Shown: piece by piece, positions 1 through 20,148 of the stretch
Layout: the number at the start of each line of letters is the position of its first letter
Numbering within the stretch: the first letter of the stretch is position 1
Source of the DNA: a virus
DNA length: 25,019 nucleotides
Strand: one strand, 5' to 3'
IMG/VR virus record: IMGVR_UViG_3300043449_000896
Span: 1-25,019 of that record
Position numbers and translations under genes: made by a program
The notes under the pieces: generated by a model
What the model saw: the letters and a program-made list of their open reading frames with translations, nothing else
Databases searched by the model: none
Told to the model about the DNA's origin: nothing

Positions 1-518
1 GCTGTACCGTTTACCGTACCAGTACATACCGCGGTACTCCCAGCTGTACTCCTTTCGTACTGGTTATATACCGTATACGGAGGATGTATATAAGTACCAG
101 GGTCGGGTTGTGATTCCGTAATGGTATAGAAAATACTACTACCTACGGAGAAGCTAAAGCTTCCAGATATGGATGCGGTTTTATCGACGTAATGTAGAGA
201 CGGAATCTCCGATCCGCTATCGATTACTACATCCTGGGTATTCGTTACTCCATGTCCATTATTAACTGTAACGCGGACTTTAATAGACCATGTCCAGTTT
301 AGCGGGGTAGGTACGGTAGAGCTTCCGGTTAGGACATAGAGTACCTGGAACCGTGCGCTACATCCATAATGTCCTCCCAAAGTAAAGTCCGCGGAGCTTC
401 CATATTCGTAGAAACCAGGAGGAATAGTATAGGACGGGTCTACTAAGCGTTTCTTTACTGTAAACGCGAAGGAAGCTCCCTGGGTACTCGTCCTGGTTAC
501 GTCTAGATAGGTAGGCAT
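1..518 (-). CDS. Beta-rich tail protein, 3' end off the left edge
   Basis: Reading the minus strand from the ATG at 518-516, the frame stays open for 172 codons to the window edge, so this is the N-terminal part of a longer protein. It begins MPTYLDVTRTSTQG and is rich in Thr, Ser, Gly, Tyr and Val in short alternating stretches, as in beta-sandwich tail proteins. The ATG overlaps the TAA of the upstream hub gene by one base (TAATG), so translation is probably coupled. Position after the tail hub gene fits a distal tail, baseplate or fibre protein. I do not recognise the family. No transmembrane segment is visible in the portion present. Confidence 0.8.
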   Translation of the reverse strand, partial: MPTYLDVTRTSTQGASFAFTVKKRLVDPSYTIPPGFYEYGSSADFTLGGHYGCSARFQVLYVLTGSSTVPTPLNWTWSIKVRVTVNNGHGVTNTQDVVIDSGSEIPSLHYVDKTASISGSFSFSVGSSIFYTITESQPDPGTYIHPPYTVYNQYERSTAGSTAVCTGTVNGT

Positions 519-3319
519 TATGCAGGTATGGTAACCGCTTCCGCGCGATATGTACAGGTACGGAGCTGGATACCGCTTCCATCCGTGTACTCCCGGATAA
601 ATTCAATATTAGGGATAGCTACAATCCTATACCATCCATAAACTCCCGTCCCGGTTGGACCCATAATGCGGACAATATCGTTTAACCAGATAGGATACTG
701 GTCCTCTGGGTTTCCTTTATTCCACATTAGTAGACCTGTATCAAATTCCACTAAGTTACGCGTAACGGTTAATCTATCCTGTAAAACCGTTACCGCGTAA
801 TCTACTTTACTTTGGGATGTAATGGTCGGATCGGCGAGGATATAGCTAACTGGTCTACCTCTCCAGTTAGAAGGACGGGAAGCTGGAGCTAGAGTCGCAT
901 CCTGTGAAGGACCATCCTGGTAGTACCCATAAATGATTTGTCCTCTACGAGGATCGCGACCTACTACTACTACGCTATTCGCTTCCGGACTCTCGCGCGT
1001 TTCCGATAGTCCCTGGAGGAGACATGTCGTAGCGAAAGGCATGGAAAGATTTCCTTTAGCTGGGTCGCGCGCTTGTTCCAATGTTTGCCATATCGTAACG
1101 TCCCAGGTAGTTGGAGTTTTATTAGGTACTTCCCAGGAATATTGATATCCTCCGAGGACGCTGGAGAGAGGTATCCATCCCTTAACCCAAGTAGCTGCAT
1201 ATGTACTATGGAGCCGATCTAACGCTCCTCCTACCGTCTCTCCACGCTCTATAGAAAATGCCCATTCTCCCTTAGATGCACCAGGAGAAAGCGGGAGCGT
1301 AAACTCCGTAGAGCTACCATCATAGGAGATAAAGATAGAGACATTATCGTACGCGCTACCGTTATCCAGGTATCCGGAGATACGGAGGAGACTCCGTACA
1401 GCGTCCGATAGTCGGAAACCGTCTAGAGCTGGAGTTGCTTGTATCATCGTTAGATCGAGGTCCGTACCTCTATCCGACCCAGTAAACTCCAGAGTACTCC
1501 ATAATCCAGTGTAATCGTTCTCCATCCTCGTTATCTTAGGCGCGCTTAAAGTACCAGCTATCATCGTTACGTATACCGCTGTAGACGTAACGGATACTCT
1601 CTGATGTTTAGCCGATCCAGTAACCGTAGGAGTAATCCCGGTTAGAGTAAACGATGTAGTCCCGGTTACCGTAGCTACCGTATACGTTTCCGTAGAGAGG
1701 ATATTACCTACCGTGGAATCAAACCGTATCGTATTACCTACTACGTACGTATTACCTCCAGCAGGTATCTGGATATTCCCGGATGTAATCGTTACGGTAG
1801 AGGACTGGATATAAACCTCCTGGTGCTTAAGTACTCCGTAAGCTGTAGGAGTAATCCCAGTAATGGTAAACGATGTAGTCCCGGTTACCGTAGCTACTGT
1901 ATAGCTAGTACCCGCTACGATGTTCCCAGCGTTAGTATCAAATCGTACGGTTTTACCTACTACGTAGGTATTCCCTCCGGATGGTATCTGCGGATCGCCG
2001 ACATTAACTATAACGTCCGTAGACAATGGACCTACAGTAGTAATAACCGCGTCCTTAGTTTTAACCTGTATCCTAAATGGTCTATCGCTTTGATATTCTG
2101 CCTGTACCATTCCAGCATTTGCCAGCAGTCCAGAATACGCGGAGAGAGTCGCGGTAGTCCTTCCGTCCTCTCCGACCGATAGGTTTAATGCGCCGATAGC
2201 ATTAGTAATATCCGTACTACCCGCGTACGTCTGGTTAGGATTAGGGTCCCAGAAAGCGTCTACAGCGTAAACCGTTGGACTTTGTGTACCGCTGAAATTC
2301 TGCATATAGCATTTAACGCGGACGGTTTTCTTTACTCCATCCCAGGAGGACGTAGTCCCGTTATCTAATACCGTCCACGTAGTCCAGTCTCCGGTCCCTT
2401 CGTGGACTATCGAAGTAACCAGCTGGGTACTATCTCCCGTAGGTCCCGCGGTATCGTTAAATGGTAGATATGTAAATACAGCTCCGGAAGGAGGAGCATA
2501 CCGGAGTACCTGCATCGATGCGATAAAGCTACCCTGAGGACTAAATCTACAATAAGCTATTTGGATCGCGAGTTTACCCGTAGGTACAGCAAATGCGAAT
2601 TTACCCGCTGGAGTAATCGCGTTAGTCGTCAAGCTCTCGTCCAAATCCGTAAAGATATGGGAGAAGCTTAATCCGTAATTTGTATGGACGAGAAGCTCCC
2701 GTCTCCGGAATGGAATAATCAGGATTTCGTTAAATTGCTGGTTAGTGGAGAAGCTCGCGGTATAGGTACTACCAGGCGCAAAGTTACTACCGCTCCGATC
2801 GTAGCTTCCTACCAGGAGTCCAGCTTTATAAACCTCTGCTTTACCGTTAGCGTAGAATACTAGCTTAATCTCTCCGGACGTACTACCAGCGTTATAGTTA
2901 TAGTAGAGACGTAGGACGGGGACATCTGCTCCTATCTTTAGCTCCGGTTTGTACCATCCTATTACCATCGGTTGATTAGCAGGGAGCGCGCTGGTTACCT
3001 GGACGATTTCGTTAGTAGATTGTTTAGCGCGTAACCAGTAATCTCCGGAAGCGCGTATCTGGAGACGTTCCCATTTAGAAGGAGTAGGAATGGTATACGC
3101 CGCGGACGGGTCCAGGCGCGCATTGTTACCAGTGTATGTATTCCCCCAGGATTCTGTAAGCGGGATAGGTTTTAGCATAGCCGTTAGAGTACATGGATCG
3201 ACCCAGATACCCTCCGTACGGAAACCCTGGGAGAGCATGGTCCCATCGAAACCTACAGCTAACCGTCCCTTCTCTGGACGAGGTTCCGGGATATCTACCT
3301 GTACTCTAACTTCATACAT
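518..3319 (-). CDS. Tail hub / tail-tip protein with two tandem beta modules
   Basis: 933 residues, directly downstream of the tape measure gene (its ATG is next to the tape measure stop), which is where siphovirus tail-tip and hub proteins are encoded. Residues 1-430 are beta-rich with Trp/Tyr-rich stretches (for example 310-360) that could be lectin-like. Residues 445-503 and 518-576 are two copies of one module with a 73-residue period: each starts IP(S/A)GGNTYVVG, contains YTVATVTGTTSFT and ends KHQ(E/R)V. Residues 600-933 look like a gp27/gpD-type hub: VVVVGRDP, GRPVSYILADPTITSQ, then LNDIVRIMG and GWYRIVAI near the C-terminus. The hub call is from pattern memory, not a search. Role inferred: closing the tail tube, anchoring receptor-binding parts and possibly binding host surface sugars. 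Confidence 0.7.
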   Translation of the reverse strand: MYEVRVQVDIPEPRPEKGRLAVGFDGTMLSQGFRTEGIWVDPCTLTAMLKPIPLTESWGNTYTGNNARLDPSAAYTIPTPSKWERLQIRASGDYWLRAKQSTNEIVQVTSALPANQPMVIGWYKPELKIGADVPVLRLYYNYNAGSTSGEIKLVFYANGKAEVYKAGLLVGSYDRSGSNFAPGSTYTASFSTNQQFNEILIIPFRRRELLVHTNYGLSFSHIFTDLDESLTTNAITPAGKFAFAVPTGKLAIQIAYCRFSPQGSFIASMQVLRYAPPSGAVFTYLPFNDTAGPTGDSTQLVTSIVHEGTGDWTTWTVLDNGTTSSWDGVKKTVRVKCYMQNFSGTQSPTVYAVDAFWDPNPNQTYAGSTDITNAIGALNLSVGEDGRTTATLSAYSGLLANAGMVQAEYQSDRPFRIQVKTKDAVITTVGPLSTDVIVNVGDPQIPSGGNTYVVGKTVRFDTNAGNIVAGTSYTVATVTGTTSFTITGITPTAYGVLKHQEVYIQSSTVTITSGNIQIPAGGNTYVVGNTIRFDSTVGNILSTETYTVATVTGTTSFTLTGITPTVTGSAKHQRVSVTSTAVYVTMIAGTLSAPKITRMENDYTGLWSTLEFTGSDRGTDLDLTMIQATPALDGFRLSDAVRSLLRISGYLDNGSAYDNVSIFISYDGSSTEFTLPLSPGASKGEWAFSIERGETVGGALDRLHSTYAATWVKGWIPLSSVLGGYQYSWEVPNKTPTTWDVTIWQTLEQARDPAKGNLSMPFATTCLLQGLSETRESPEANSVVVVGRDPRRGQIIYGYYQDGPSQDATLAPASRPSNWRGRPVSYILADPTITSQSKVDYAVTVLQDRLTVTRNLVEFDTGLLMWNKGNPEDQYPIWLNDIVRIMGPTGTGVYGWYRIVAIPNIEFIREYTDGSGIQLRTCTYRAEAVTIPA
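1598..1987 (-). repeat. Tandem repeat encoding two ~60-residue beta modules
   Basis: Within the tail hub gene, residues 445-503 and 518-576 are near copies, period 219 nt. Conserved blocks are GGNTYVVG, RFD, GNI, YTVATVTGTTSFT, TGITPT and KHQ. Base similarity is visible too: the segment around tttacgatgtagtcccgg occurs in both units at about 1650 and 1870. This suggests a duplication within the gene. Confidence 0.85.
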
Positions 3320-4774: not shown

Positions 4775-5318
4775 TAAAAGAAACCTCTAGATGCTTTCTC
4801 CGCTTCTAGCTTCTCTATCTCGCGCGCTATCCACGCTACATCCGCTAGAGCGGTAACGGATAAATCCAGCTCCAGTGGATGCCGGTGTAGGTATTTAACG
4901 GAGTAGTAAAGGATATCCTTAGCTACTCCGTTTAGGCGTTTCCCGCTTCCTTAATCTCCTGATTAAAGTCTACTAAAAATGCGGTTTGGAATAGTTGAAA
5001 TACTCGGAGATAAGCTCTCTTATTACGGAGAGCTAGCTTACAGATATCCTTTACTGGGTCGATGGTTTGTGTATCCTTCTCCGAAGGGACGTAACATCTA
5101 CCGATAATGTAGCAGCTCTGGAGCTGGTCGATAATCATCTCCGGAAAGGATATCCGGAGACGTTCGATAGCCGATCCATTAGGATAAAGGTCCGGGATTT
5201 TAGGTTCTCTAAAAGTAAGCATTACTTTATCTCCTGCTGGAAAGAAATCAGAAAGGTCTACTTCTAGGTTCGGTTTTACTTCATCCTGGGGGATGGTACT
5301 TAATGCAGTAAGGGACAT
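4774..5318 (-). CDS. Tail assembly chaperone, frameshifted (GT-like) form
   Basis: A -1 slip on GGGAAAC (4944-4938) joins the first 127 codons to an ORF in the next frame that reads RLNGVAKDILYYSVKYLHRH and continues to a TAA at 4776-4774, giving about 181 residues. The extension has no start or ribosome binding site of its own, stays open for 54 codons and ends exactly on the tape measure ATG, so it is best explained as a translational fusion. This matches the G/GT arrangement conserved in long-tailed phages. The extension has a C-terminal charged helix containing AREIEKLEAEK. Confidence 0.88.
4897..4944 (-). promoter_or_regulatory. Programmed -1 ribosomal frameshift signal
   Basis: Slippery heptamer G GGA AAC at 4944-4938 in the correct register of the chaperone frame (GCG GGA AAC). 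A 5-nt spacer (GCCTA) follows, then a perfect 10-bp stem: AACGGAGTAG (4932-4923) pairs with CTACTCCGTT (4906-4897). The 16-nt loop can form four further pairs (AAGG/CCTT) around ATAT. The zero-frame stop lies just after the heptamer. Site, spacing and hairpin are all as expected for -1 frameshifting. Confidence 0.9.
4932..5318 (-). CDS. Tail assembly chaperone, short (G-like) form
   Basis: 128 residues, acidic at the N-terminus (VKPNLEVDLSDFFPAGDKVMLTFREPKIPD), ending EIKEAGNA then TAA. It lies between the tail tube and tape measure genes, the standard position of the lambda G / HK97 gp13-type chaperone. The family role is to bind the tape measure protein and guide tube assembly without entering the virion. 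Start support: GGAG about 11 nt before the ATG. The last four sense codons contain the slippery site used to make the longer form. Function comes from position and the frameshift signal rather than sequence recognition. Confidence 0.82.
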   Translation of the reverse strand: MSLTALSTIPQDEVKPNLEVDLSDFFPAGDKVMLTFREPKIPDLYPNGSAIERLRISFPEMIIDQLQSCYIIGRCYVPSEKDTQTIDPVKDICKLALRNKRAYLRVFQLFQTAFLVDFNQEIKEAGNA

Positions 5319-5327
5319 AAGTTAAGA

Positions 5328-5762
5328 TTACTCCAGTCCGCTGTAATACGCTACTCCCAGCTTAATCGTAGCTGATTCCTTAACGATATCGTCCGCTACG
5401 ATAGGTTGTGTAGCGGTTTGGATTACTCCGGTAAATGTTTGGATTACTGGAGTCCCTTCGGCTAGAGTAAGTTTCAGTTTAACGAAATAACCTTCTTTCA
5501 TAAAGAAAATAGGATTTACGTTTCCAGTATCTCCATCATAGTTAATTTCAATTTCCACGGTTCCGGTAGTAGATACTGTAAGGGATTTATCCGTAGCATC
5601 CGCTAACGTCTGGACGTTCTTAAAGTTAACCGACCTAGTAGGACGGAAGGAAGTAACCAGAGCGGTACGGTCGACAGTGGAAATAGCTGCTGGAGTCCCT
5701 GCGGACTGAAGCGCACCGATACCAATTTCTACCGTACAGTTGTTATAGAGAAGAAACTTCAT
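5328..5762 (-). CDS. Major tail (tube) protein
   Basis: 144 residues, predicted mostly beta: KFLLYNNCTVEIGIG at the start, RPTRSVNFKNVQTLADATDK, then TVEIEINYDGDTG and FFMKEGYFVKLKLTL. The pattern of a short beta protein asserting its domain within the tail module, next to the terminator gene upstream and the chaperone gene downstream, fits the gpV/HK97 gp6-like tail tube family. The family role is to polymerise as stacked hexamer rings around the tape measure. It is at the small end for tube proteins and lacks the extra Ig-like domain that some carry. Identification rests on gene order and general character rather than a diagnostic motif. Confidence 0.75.
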   Translation of the reverse strand: MKFLLYNNCTVEIGIGALQSAGTPAAISTVDRTALVTSFRPTRSVNFKNVQTLADATDKSLTVSTTGTVEIEINYDGDTGNVNPIFFMKEGYFVKLKLTLAEGTPVIQTFTGVIQTATQPIVADDIVKESATIKLGVAYYSGLE

Positions 5763-5773
5763 ACCATAGACTC

Positions 5774-6259
5774 CTAAGATATTACCTGGGCTGTAATCTT
5801 ATAGAGGAGTGTAGCGCAAAATACTACCCGTCCTCCGGACTGGTCCTCGTAAACCATATCCGTACTCTCTCTCTTATAGAGGATGCACGGATTAGTAGAG
5901 GTTACGTACCGACCATCTAAAAGCTCCGCTACGCGGTTAGCTATATTCTGTACCTGTACCATAGAGATCGAACCGCTAGACATACCGTAGATATTAATCC
6001 TGTAAACCGGAGTACTTATTACCCTAGTTTTACCGATAGTAATCTGGTCCGCTTGATAGCTTCCCTCTCGCGTAAATACTATAAATGGAAACCTGGGAGG
6101 TTTCCTGGATACCGGATCGGTTTCCGGGGAGATATGCGCGTATACTCCCTGCTGATAACCGTTAGGTAGATTATCTACCGCGAGTAGATCGGATAGCGTA
6201 GCGTCCGCGGTAAGTACCGTATAGATATCCGGTTCTATTACTCCAGGTTCAAATACCAT
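5774..6259 (-). CDS. Tail terminator / tail completion protein
   Basis: 161 residues. The pattern LTADATLSDLL near the N-terminus, FPFIVFTREGSYQADQ in the middle, YRINIYG, then a helix (QNIANRVAELLDGR) and a final beta hairpin is typical of small tail terminator proteins of the gpU / DUF3168-like group, which cap the tail tube and form the interface with the head. It sits between the HK97 gp10-like gene and the tail tube gene, as expected. Called from pattern and position. Confidence 0.72.
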   Translation of the reverse strand: MVFEPGVIEPDIYTVLTADATLSDLLAVDNLPNGYQQGVYAHISPETDPVSRKPPRFPFIVFTREGSYQADQITIGKTRVISTPVYRINIYGMSSGSISMVQVQNIANRVAELLDGRYVTSTNPCILYKRESTDMVYEDQSGGRVVFCATLLYKITAQVIS

Positions 6260-7051: not shown

Positions 7052-8889
7052 TAGTTACTCCTGACATAGAGACGTAAACCGCCATAGATGGACGTATCCG
7101 TAGCTCCTGTAGTCCTGGTTACGGTTACGTAGTATGTACCTGGGTTAGCGGTAACTACTGTATCCAGGGTAAACGATACAAATCCCGCATCAGAGTATGA
7201 AGCTGTACCAGCGTATGTATTAACCAGCGTCCCCGAAGTAGTATAGATTTTAATGGAGAGCGTCGATCCGCTTAACGGGATACCTGTACCCATAGCGTCT
7301 ACCAGCTGGAGTACTACTGGGAGAGAGCTTCCAGTTAAGATATCGACATTAATCTCCTGTTTACTCTGGTCCGCTACTACCTTAAATGGACCCATACGGA
7401 GAGTAGAGGTACTACCTCCTCCTCCTCCCGCAGTAGATACCTGGGAATCCAGATAGTATCCGTAAGTACCAGCGGATGGAATACCTCCACTTGGACTGGA
7501 TGTAGATCGGGCTTGATTCCATATCCCATTAGTTATCTCTGTAACCGCATCCGATGCGAGAGAGCTAGCTGTAACTACATCCGGTTGCATTTGATGTACA
7601 TCAGTAGCTATATGGTTTGAACCAGTAATAAAGGTTTCATAAGATGGAGACGTAGAAGTACCTCTAATGATTCGCCGACCAAATGTATTAGCCGTTGAAT
7701 ATGAAGTTAACAGAGCATCCCATACCGCGGATGAAGTTTGGCTAACCGTTAATGGAGGAGTACTGAGAGAGTATCCTGTTTTATCGGATACGGTTCCCGC
7801 TGTAACCGCTCCTGCTACGCTAATCGTTAGCGCGCTAAAGTTAGTCGGAAGCGTGAAGGATGCCATACGCGAGGAGATAGCTGCATCTAATCGGTTTCCG
7901 ATAATGTTACCCGCGCTACCAGCAGCATATGCTCCAGGGAGAGCGGTAGACCATGGATCGGCAGCGGACCCAGCTGCATTAAGTTTAAACCCAGCTTGTC
8001 CGCTAGTATACGTACCTGGTAACGCTTCGGACCATACCTGGGTCGCTACCTGGGCTGCGGTAGGAGGAGCGGTATATGTGAAGGTCGCCATACGGGAGGA
8101 GACGGTAGCGTCTATATTAGTCTTAAGCTGGAGTCCAATGGAGGAAGCTGTAGTTACGTTAGCAGAGAGTACATCCCATACGCTCTGGGAAGTAATATCA
8201 TTAAATCCAGTAATACCCGTACCCTTCGCTAAAACGATATTAGTACCAGCGGATAGAGTCCTGGTAGCTGCTGCCCATACATTTGTCGATGTACCTGCAT
8301 CCAGTTTAAATCCAGCTTGTCCGCTGGTGAAAGTTCCTGGGAGAGCTTCGGACCATACCTGGGTACTTATTTGCGCTGCTGTAGGAGGAGTAACGGATAG
8401 CGAGTATCCGGTTTTATCGTTATTAGTAGTAACCGTTACTCCCGCCGTAACGGAGGCTACGCTACCAGCTACGTTACCAGCGGAGACGTTTAGCTGGGAA
8501 GTACCAGTCCCAGAGGTTAGGACTCCTCCCGCCGATCCGCTCGCGATATTCGGGAGAGCGGTTAATCCTAATCGGACGGTATCAAATGGATCGTATGCCT
8601 GTACCTGGACTATGCTGTTATAGTCCCTGGTAACGGAAGCTTTCTCGATATTAACCGCTATCCATCCCAGGGTATCTACTTCCCCGGATGTAAATTCATA
8701 GTAGTATTGTCCGTTACCTATTTCGGTCCAGGTTCCAGCTCCAGAAGCTATGGCAGCTCCGTTCTTAGATATAGTAATCGTAGGAGTAACGATACCCGTA
8801 GATGGAGTAAATCCATCCGTAAGGGATACCAGTAGTACAGGTACTCGTCTACGTGCTGCTGTAGCTTCGGATTGTTTAATCTGGAACAT
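7051..8889 (-). CDS. Large repeat-containing virion appendage protein
   Basis: 612 residues. Residues 15-100 form a beta domain (VPVLLVSLTDGFTPSTGIV to YYYEFTSGEVDTLGWIAVNI). Residues 105-480 hold degenerate repeats built on a (V/I/P)W motif, at about 178, 204, 238, 285, 312, 389 and 457; the best pair is QVWSEALPGTFTSGQAGFKL and QVWSEALPGTYTSGQAGFKL. NDKTGYSLS and SDKTGYSLS form a second repeat. A Gly-rich hinge (GGGGG near 490) leads to an Ig-like C-terminal domain, 510-610. Such proteins occur as phage fibres or appendages. The gene lies between head-completion and tail genes, so it could be a head fibre, collar or tail appendage. Composition is Ala/Thr/Ser-rich with almost no Cys. Confidence 0.72.
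   Translation of the reverse strand: MFQIKQSEATAARRRVPVLLVSLTDGFTPSTGIVTPTITISKNGAAIASGAGTWTEIGNGQYYYEFTSGEVDTLGWIAVNIEKASVTRDYNSIVQVQAYDPFDTVRLGLTALPNIASGSAGGVLTSGTGTSQLNVSAGNVAGSVASVTAGVTVTTNNDKTGYSLSVTPPTAAQISTQVWSEALPGTFTSGQAGFKLDAGTSTNVWAAATRTLSAGTNIVLAKGTGITGFNDITSQSVWDVLSANVTTASSIGLQLKTNIDATVSSRMATFTYTAPPTAAQVATQVWSEALPGTYTSGQAGFKLNAAGSAADPWSTALPGAYAAGSAGNIIGNRLDAAISSRMASFTLPTNFSALTISVAGAVTAGTVSDKTGYSLSTPPLTVSQTSSAVWDALLTSYSTANTFGRRIIRGTSTSPSYETFITGSNHIATDVHQMQPDVVTASSLASDAVTEITNGIWNQARSTSSPSGGIPSAGTYGYYLDSQVSTAGGGGGSTSTLRMGPFKVVADQSKQEINVDILTGSSLPVVLQLVDAMGTGIPLSGSTLSIKIYTTSGTLVNTYAGTASYSDAGFVSFTLDTVVTANPGTYYVTVTRTTGATDTSIYGGLRLYVRSN
7890..8360 (-). repeat. Degenerate VW-repeats within the appendage gene
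   Basis: The segment coding for QVWSEALPG(T)xTSGQAGFKL is present twice (around 7985-8045 and 8305-8365), with shared bases such as ccagcttgtccgct and cggaccatacctgggt. Weaker copies lie between and downstream (DPWSTALPGAYAAGSAGN, VWDALLTSYSTANTFG). They are protein-level repeats of a fibrous region. Confidence 0.75.
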
Positions 8890-18975: not shown

Positions 18976-20148
18976 CTATACCGCGGTCCATCCTCTACGC
19001 GTCTCTAGCACGTTATAGGCGTAGCTTAAAGCGTCCACACTATCATCATGTCTCCCGATAGGGAAGCTTAGAAGCTCGTCTGTAAACCAGGGAGGAAGCT
19101 TCGGAGAATGGAGAACTAGTCCTTGTTCGTACCGCGCCTCCAGCGGGAGGAAGCGGGAAACCTTATCCTTATCCGGACGTAGTCCGCGTACCGGGAGCTT
19201 CGTAGTCCGGAGAAGCTCCTGGATAACGCTAGCCTGGTACTGTACATTTTCGATTCCGATTATCTTAGGAGTCCATACGGACGCTACCGCTTTTATATGC
19301 TCTAGTACCTGGTTAAACGGAGCGCGTATTCTCTGAGCGTCAAGGATGTAGATACTCCCGTCCGGTAGACGCGTTAGGACTACGGTAGCTGTATAGTCCG
19401 CTTCCGCTTTCTGGGAGATAGCTAGGTCTACTCCCATATAGGTATCCCCGTATTCGGAGATATGTACGATACGTATCCAGTCCCGCGATACACGCGCTCC
19501 AGCTGCATCCACAAATTCCGCGAGATACTCCTGCCTATACGCGATACTTGGGAGAGCTTTACTAGCTGCTTCTACTTCCTGCGGATCGATGTACGGATTA
19601 TCGGTAGTAGGTAATCGGAAGCTCCTCCAGTCCTCGTCCTCCTTCTCCATCTCGTAGAGTATGGAGAAATAGTTACGTCCCTTCGGAGTAGATAGGAAAT
19701 ATGCATCTCCCAGGTAATCGGTTAGGGTAGGTCGGATAGCTTCGGTCCACGCTTCCTCCAGGTATCTAGCGGATGCTGCTTCATCTATGATTACTCGTCC
19801 ATACTTCCGTCCGCGCGCTACCGTACCTGGGTCCTCCAGCGTCCAGTAATCTATCGCGCCTCCAGTTATAAGCTCTATCCTGGGATATGGACTGGAAACG
19901 GATCGCGTTATTAGTGGAGCGTATATCCTCTTATGGTCGCGGTAAGCTTCCTCCAGTAGACGGTATGTAGGAGCGAACCATCCAACCGGTAGACGCTTGA
20001 TTACAGCTACATCCGCTATCAGGTTTCCCCCCAGGGTAGTTTTACCGAAGCGTCTACCGCAGGAGAGGACATTAAACCGTTTAGCTTCCTGAAGTATTAC
20101 AGCTTGTCCGTTATGTGGACGAGGAAGGACCAGCTCCGTACGCGCCAT
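18976..20148 (-). CDS. terL: Terminase large subunit
   Basis: 390 residues, compact for the family. ATPase: Walker A GRRFGKTT at 31-38, Walker B VIIDEAA at 119-125, coupling motif STPKG at 153-157. Nuclease: Asp241 in YMGVDLAIS, Glu300 in IIGIENVQ, and Asp368/Asp369/Asp372 in RHDDSVDAL. It drives DNA into the prohead and cuts the concatemer. Start codon is next to the stop of the small subunit gene. Both domains look complete despite the short length. Confidence 0.95.
   Translation of the reverse strand: MARTELVLPRPHNGQAVILQEAKRFNVLSCGRRFGKTTLGGNLIADVAVIKRLPVGWFAPTYRLLEEAYRDHKRIYAPLITRSVSSPYPRIELITGGAIDYWTLEDPGTVARGRKYGRVIIDEAASARYLEEAWTEAIRPTLTDYLGDAYFLSTPKGRNYFSILYEMEKEDEDWRSFRLPTTDNPYIDPQEVEAASKALPSIAYRQEYLAEFVDAAGARVSRDWIRIVHISEYGDTYMGVDLAISQKAEADYTATVVLTRLPDGSIYILDAQRIRAPFNQVLEHIKAVASVWTPKIIGIENVQYQASVIQELLRTTKLPVRGLRPDKDKVSRFLPLEARYEQGLVLHSPKLPPWFTDELLSFPIGRHDDSVDALSYAYNVLETRRGWTAV

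Follow-up and report, generated by a model that had tools for sequence, protein, structure and literature searches.

The heptamer of the G/GT frameshift of phage lambda is G_GGA_AAG. The lambda frameshift has been described by Levin 1993 and Xu 2004, as reviewed in PMC5009743, and -1 frameshifting between two tail chaperone genes preceding the tape measure gene is presented there as widely conserved among long-tailed phages (Xu 2004 via PMC5009743). Within this gene pair, the heptamer GGGAAAC has been predicted in Burkholderia phage KL1 (gp18/gp19; PMC3483164) and in Caulobacter phage Colossus, and AAAAAAC in phiCbK (PMC3556154), so that both GGGAAAC and AAAAAAC belong to the slip sites already described for tail chaperone genes (PMC3483164, PMC3556154, PMC5009743). 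In E. coli, A_AAA_AAC is less slippery than A_AAA_AAG, and C_CCA_AAG is shift-prone (PMC5009743). No natural phage slip site of the sequence CCCAAAC turned up in the literature searched; other papers, Xu 2004 among them, may list one.

The window, i.e. the whole stretch of DNA analyzed here, is a 25,019-base virus contig (IMG/VR record IMGVR_UViG_3300043449_000896, positions 1 to 25,019), and between a chaperone-like gene and the tape measure gene it carries what is almost certainly a signal for programmed -1 ribosomal frameshifting, similar in kind to that of lambda G/GT. The presence of a complete cassette, as claimed in a preliminary description of this DNA, is confirmed, and all of its elements lie at the positions proposed there, on the minus strand, which had not been specified. 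The heptamer GGGAAAC (4944-4938) is in register, being read in the chaperone frame as gc[G GGA AAC], and stands at the 3' end of the 128-aa chaperone ORF (5318-4932), which closes with ...GAA GCG GGA AAC GCC TAA. The 0-frame stop TAA occupies 4934-4932 and a second in-frame stop, TAG, follows three codons later (4925-4923). The expected 5-nt spacer, as delimited by heptamer and stem, is GCCTA (4937-4933). It leads into the predicted perfect 10-bp stem, in which AACGGAGTAG (4932-4923) pairs with CTACTCCGTT (4906-4897) at 10/10 positions, and the possible inner extension is likewise present in the apical part of the hairpin (4922-4907) as AAGG/CCTT (AAGG/CCUU in the RNA, 4920-4917 with 4912-4909). 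When folded, the 81-nt segment reached -24.6 kcal/mol (z = -3.2), a stability equalled by 0/200 shuffles, and an equally stable fold was encountered in 0.14% of 36-nt windows on the same strand.

The open -1 frame also proved to be as announced: 54 codons (4938-4777) are followed by a TAA (4776-4774) that overlaps the tape measure ATG in the sequence TAATG, and a conceptual -1 shift at the heptamer yields a 181-aa fusion, predicted to be gpGT-like with the extension (4938-4774) as its T-like domain. This open stretch contains no ATG, GTG or TTG, and mechanical ORF calling misses the extension because it has no start codon. In-frame XXXAAAC is found at 2/7642 in-frame positions of the window's genes; another in-frame G_GGA_AAC, located at 20023-20029 within the minus-strand gene for the large terminase subunit (20148-18976), is likely due to chance. 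As a separate observation, the two in-frame stops past the slip site form the tandem TAA ACG GAG TAG (4934-4923), and most clade-1 relatives possess only the TAG, inside the 5' arm of the stem, so that the earlier stop was probably gained in the window's group.

According to the mechanism that we propose, most ribosomes would terminate at TAA and release the 128-aa chaperone, while a minority, held by the downstream hairpin, would slip back one base on G_GGA_AAC, with tRNA-Gly re-pairing on GGG and tRNA-Asn on AAA. Slipped ribosomes would then read 54 further codons and produce the 181-aa fusion, ending on the tape measure start codon. Such a tandem slip after decoding of AAC modifies one detail of the preliminary description, in which the junction was given as AGK-RLNGVAK: the main expected junction is ...EAGN-RLNGVAK, and the one given would stand as a minor product if slippage took place in the P site only. 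If lambda serves as a guide, the tape measure protein should be coated by the short form, and recruitment of the subunits of the major tail protein should fall to the rare fusion. We infer the occurrence of slippage and its rate, together with the division of labour between the two products, which would follow the functional split between short form and fusion in lambda.

Compared with lambda, the locus has a similar gene order, in which a major tail gene (a candidate in the window, by a weak match) precedes G, (-1) T and the tape measure gene, and shares a G_GGA_AA. heptamer near the end of G and an extension that would be made by the -1 shift alone and ends at the tape measure gene. It differs from lambda in its second slip codon (AAC, not AAG), in the stable covarying hairpin situated 5-10 nt downstream, and in a chaperone without sequence match to the lambda G family. 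With KL1 gp18/gp19 and Colossus, compared on the basis of their published descriptions, the window has in common the heptamer GGGAAAC in the same gene pair and, in the case of KL1, a predicted stem-loop and a site that immediately precedes the stop of G; the KL1 and Colossus sites differ in being presented there as predictions, without a covariation test.

The gene downstream agrees with this assignment. The 484-aa protein encoded downstream (4774-3320) matches TMP_3 (PF20155; E = 1.1e-15) as well as several PHROG tape measure families, in agreement with the tape measure gene previously suggested here. Upstream, the ORFs 5328-5762 and 5774-6259 show weak matches to a major tail protein (E 0.027) and a tail terminator (E 5e-4), respectively, and the arrangement of the portal, terminase and Mu F-like head genes is the one usual in tailed phages. 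The annotated phage collection searched gave no match for either the tape measure protein or the chaperone, nor was any obtained for the portal and the extension in the prokaryote genomes searched, and for this reason no host is named.

The proposal that the upstream gene encodes a tail chaperone is supported by its relatives, by its position adjoining the tape measure gene upstream and, weakly, by fold matches. The chaperone of the window has no Pfam or PHROG match, its relatives share 83-30% identity, and none of the known families of tail assembly chaperones was matched in sequence, the best hit among the relatives being Phage_TAC_7 (E 0.24). Its AlphaFold model is confident (pLDDT 86.5), and the best two PDB fold matches of this model are B. 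subtilis YqbN (3KLU; E 0.04) and HK97 gp13 (2OB9; E 0.17), both described as tail assembly chaperones (PMC9603447). These matches are weak by E-value, with a TM of about 0.4-0.5, and the two proteins differ from the window chaperone in sharing just 11-17% identity with it. In a viral structure library the nearest entries are two uncharacterized proteins of uncultured Caudovirales phages. The model thus weakly suggests a tail assembly chaperone fold for the 128-aa protein, the putative gpG-like product of the 0 frame.

IMG/VR searches with the extension and the chaperone provided 75 distinct relatives, 74 of which span the site. In 73 of these 74 metagenomic sequences a heptamer X_XXA_AAC is present in register with the chaperone frame. 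X is G in the close kin of the window (L042-L044) as well as in L048, L053, L055 and L088, A in most relatives, and C in a third set, and consequently the residue preceding Asn is Gly, Lys or Pro, while the Asn encoded in the heptamer is invariant in the alignment. A change between Gly, Lys and Pro under which the nucleotide rule is kept would not be expected from protein-level constraint. On a tree built from the chaperone and the distal extension, X changes three times and GGGAAAC is placed on two separate branches. The single exception is a distant relative, L089, which possesses A_AAA_AAA instead of an AAAC heptamer. In this sequence (L089:2476-2500) a run of eight A is located ~46 bases before the 0-frame stop, where either ribosomal or transcriptional slippage could occur. 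A Shine-Dalgarno-like stimulator 5' of the heptamer, which in the window would be AAGGA, was discarded as a general component of the element, since L045, L046 and other relatives do not conserve it.

Across the group, the second slip codon is almost always AAC and never AAG, whereas X and the hairpin have been rebuilt. What selection maintains may be a fixed rate of slippage and not a particular sequence, and the hosts may share a decoding trait favouring AAC (e.g. how tRNA-Asn is modified, or the possession of two lysine tRNAs), an idea that we offer tentatively and regard as rather doubtful. No tRNA genes were found in the window.

A homologous -1 frame extension is present in every relative with enough downstream sequence, and its length amounts to 50-62 codons where the extension is complete and the slip site is X_XXA_AAC. 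Among distant kin, the extension is better conserved than the body of the chaperone (53% vs 38%). Among close relatives, its pS of 0.30-0.56 compares with a pN of 0.04-0.05, a pattern that is lost when this DNA is read in either of the other frames and that indicates that the -1 frame is under purifying selection. Moreover, over the first 14 codons of the extension, where the hairpin is located, synonymous change is about half of that in the remainder in three separate subgroups (0.20 vs 0.49, 0.32 vs 0.68 and 0.35 vs 0.72). As an alternative, the -1 frame might encode a separate small protein, translated from an internal start between chaperone and tape measure genes with no frameshift involved, and GTG or TTG codons do occur in the extension of some relatives. 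We consider this very improbable, since the open -1 stretch of L042, like that of the window, is devoid of ATG, GTG and TTG, 42/72 sequences have no such start between a point 60 nt before the extension and one 30 nt inside it, and the in-register conservation of the heptamer across G, A and C would stay unexplained.

Both arms of the window's stem, AACGGAGUAG (4932-4923) and CUACUCCGUU (4906-4897), are supported by folding and by covariation, and the inner pairs covary in relatives too. Six core pairs (alignment columns 16-45 to 21-40) are formed in 30/30 distinct sequences of the main structural group, while the outermost pairs are not conserved among relatives. The stem pair 18-43 is UA, AU or CG, the third base of a GGN Gly codon complementing, within the 3' arm, the first base of a codon for Ser, Thr or Ala; the codon combinations are GGA/TCC (14), GGT/ACC or ACT (27) and GGC/GCC (1). 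On the tree, each side of this pair changes four times, as does the pair state, with 0 unpaired among 42 rows. In the main structural group, the covariation score was 0.355 compared to 0.152 after shuffling (0/500), and sliding the arms against each other abolished the signal. When compared to synonymous recodings of the same peptide, the hairpins of 13/14 representatives from the main and L134-type groups were more stable (z -2.4 to -7.2); the hairpin of L047 showed no significant gain (z = -1.2).

The pairing partners are not the same in all relatives. In the CCCAAAC group, the 5' arm pairs with a later 3' arm (GCGGGGTGGCGC with GCGCCATCCC.GC), and in segments long enough to include this later arm 7/7 hairpins were more stable than their synonymous recodings (z -3.1 to -5.1). 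This stem is 99% paired and gives no covariation because it is too uniform. In L134, L135 and L153 the hairpin is formed by GUGUAGGU/ACCUACAC. As the main, CCCAAAC and L134-type sets use different pairings, a hairpin a few bases past the slip site has been reached in three non-homologous ways, the 3' arms differing within one and the same coding region. An Rfam search returned no match. A structure conserved in relatives is present at a distance of 5-10 nt from the slip site, with a putative stimulatory role.

The hairpin also bears on a further scenario, in which the fusion arises from stuttering of the RNA polymerase and not from slippage of the ribosome. The six-A run of the AAAAAAC relatives and the eight A of L089 would suit such transcriptional slippage, but runs do not exceed three in the GGGAAAC sequence of the window or in the CCCAAAC relatives, and the process has no need for a covarying downstream hairpin at frameshift spacing; we regard it as less probable still than a separately initiated protein. 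Finally, the two frames might really be one ORF, which a single base would join, split by an error of sequencing or assembly or by gene decay. This is of negligible probability and is refuted by the comparison with relatives, as 73 distinct ones, found in many metagenomes, repeat the frame relation and show both synonymous divergence and intact frames.

Taken together, the relatives support the interpretation of the locus as a ribosomal frameshift cassette. The preliminary description had proposed to look in them for loss of the heptamer or stem and for decay of the -1 frame, and the opposite was observed, namely a heptamer in 73/74 sequences, purifying selection, and repeated compensatory change in the stem. 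The lambda G/GT-type frameshift class hereby gains a member in an uncultured phage group for which the collection searched has no annotated record. In kind this member is ordinary, and its conserved AAC second codon, free X and hairpin turnover are somewhat unusual. For uncultured phages, this provides a comparative, covariation-backed frameshift element, attached to a chaperone without match in the phage record collection searched, and both the chaperone and the fusion become annotatable in these contigs. The natural GGGAAAC/AAAAAAC/CCCAAAC series with its three hairpins, moreover, offers a ready set for measuring how phages keep a product ratio constant.

Two other features of the window were observed. 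A 318-aa ATG-initiated open frame (7667-8623, plus strand) lies antisense to the 612-aa gene 8889-7051 and is probably a by-product of codon bias. The 933-aa protein encoded after the tape measure gene (518-3319) contains a near-repeat of ~70 residues (VGDPQIPSGGNTYVVG... and SGNIQIPAGGNTYVVG...), which is seen as overlapping matches to L002.
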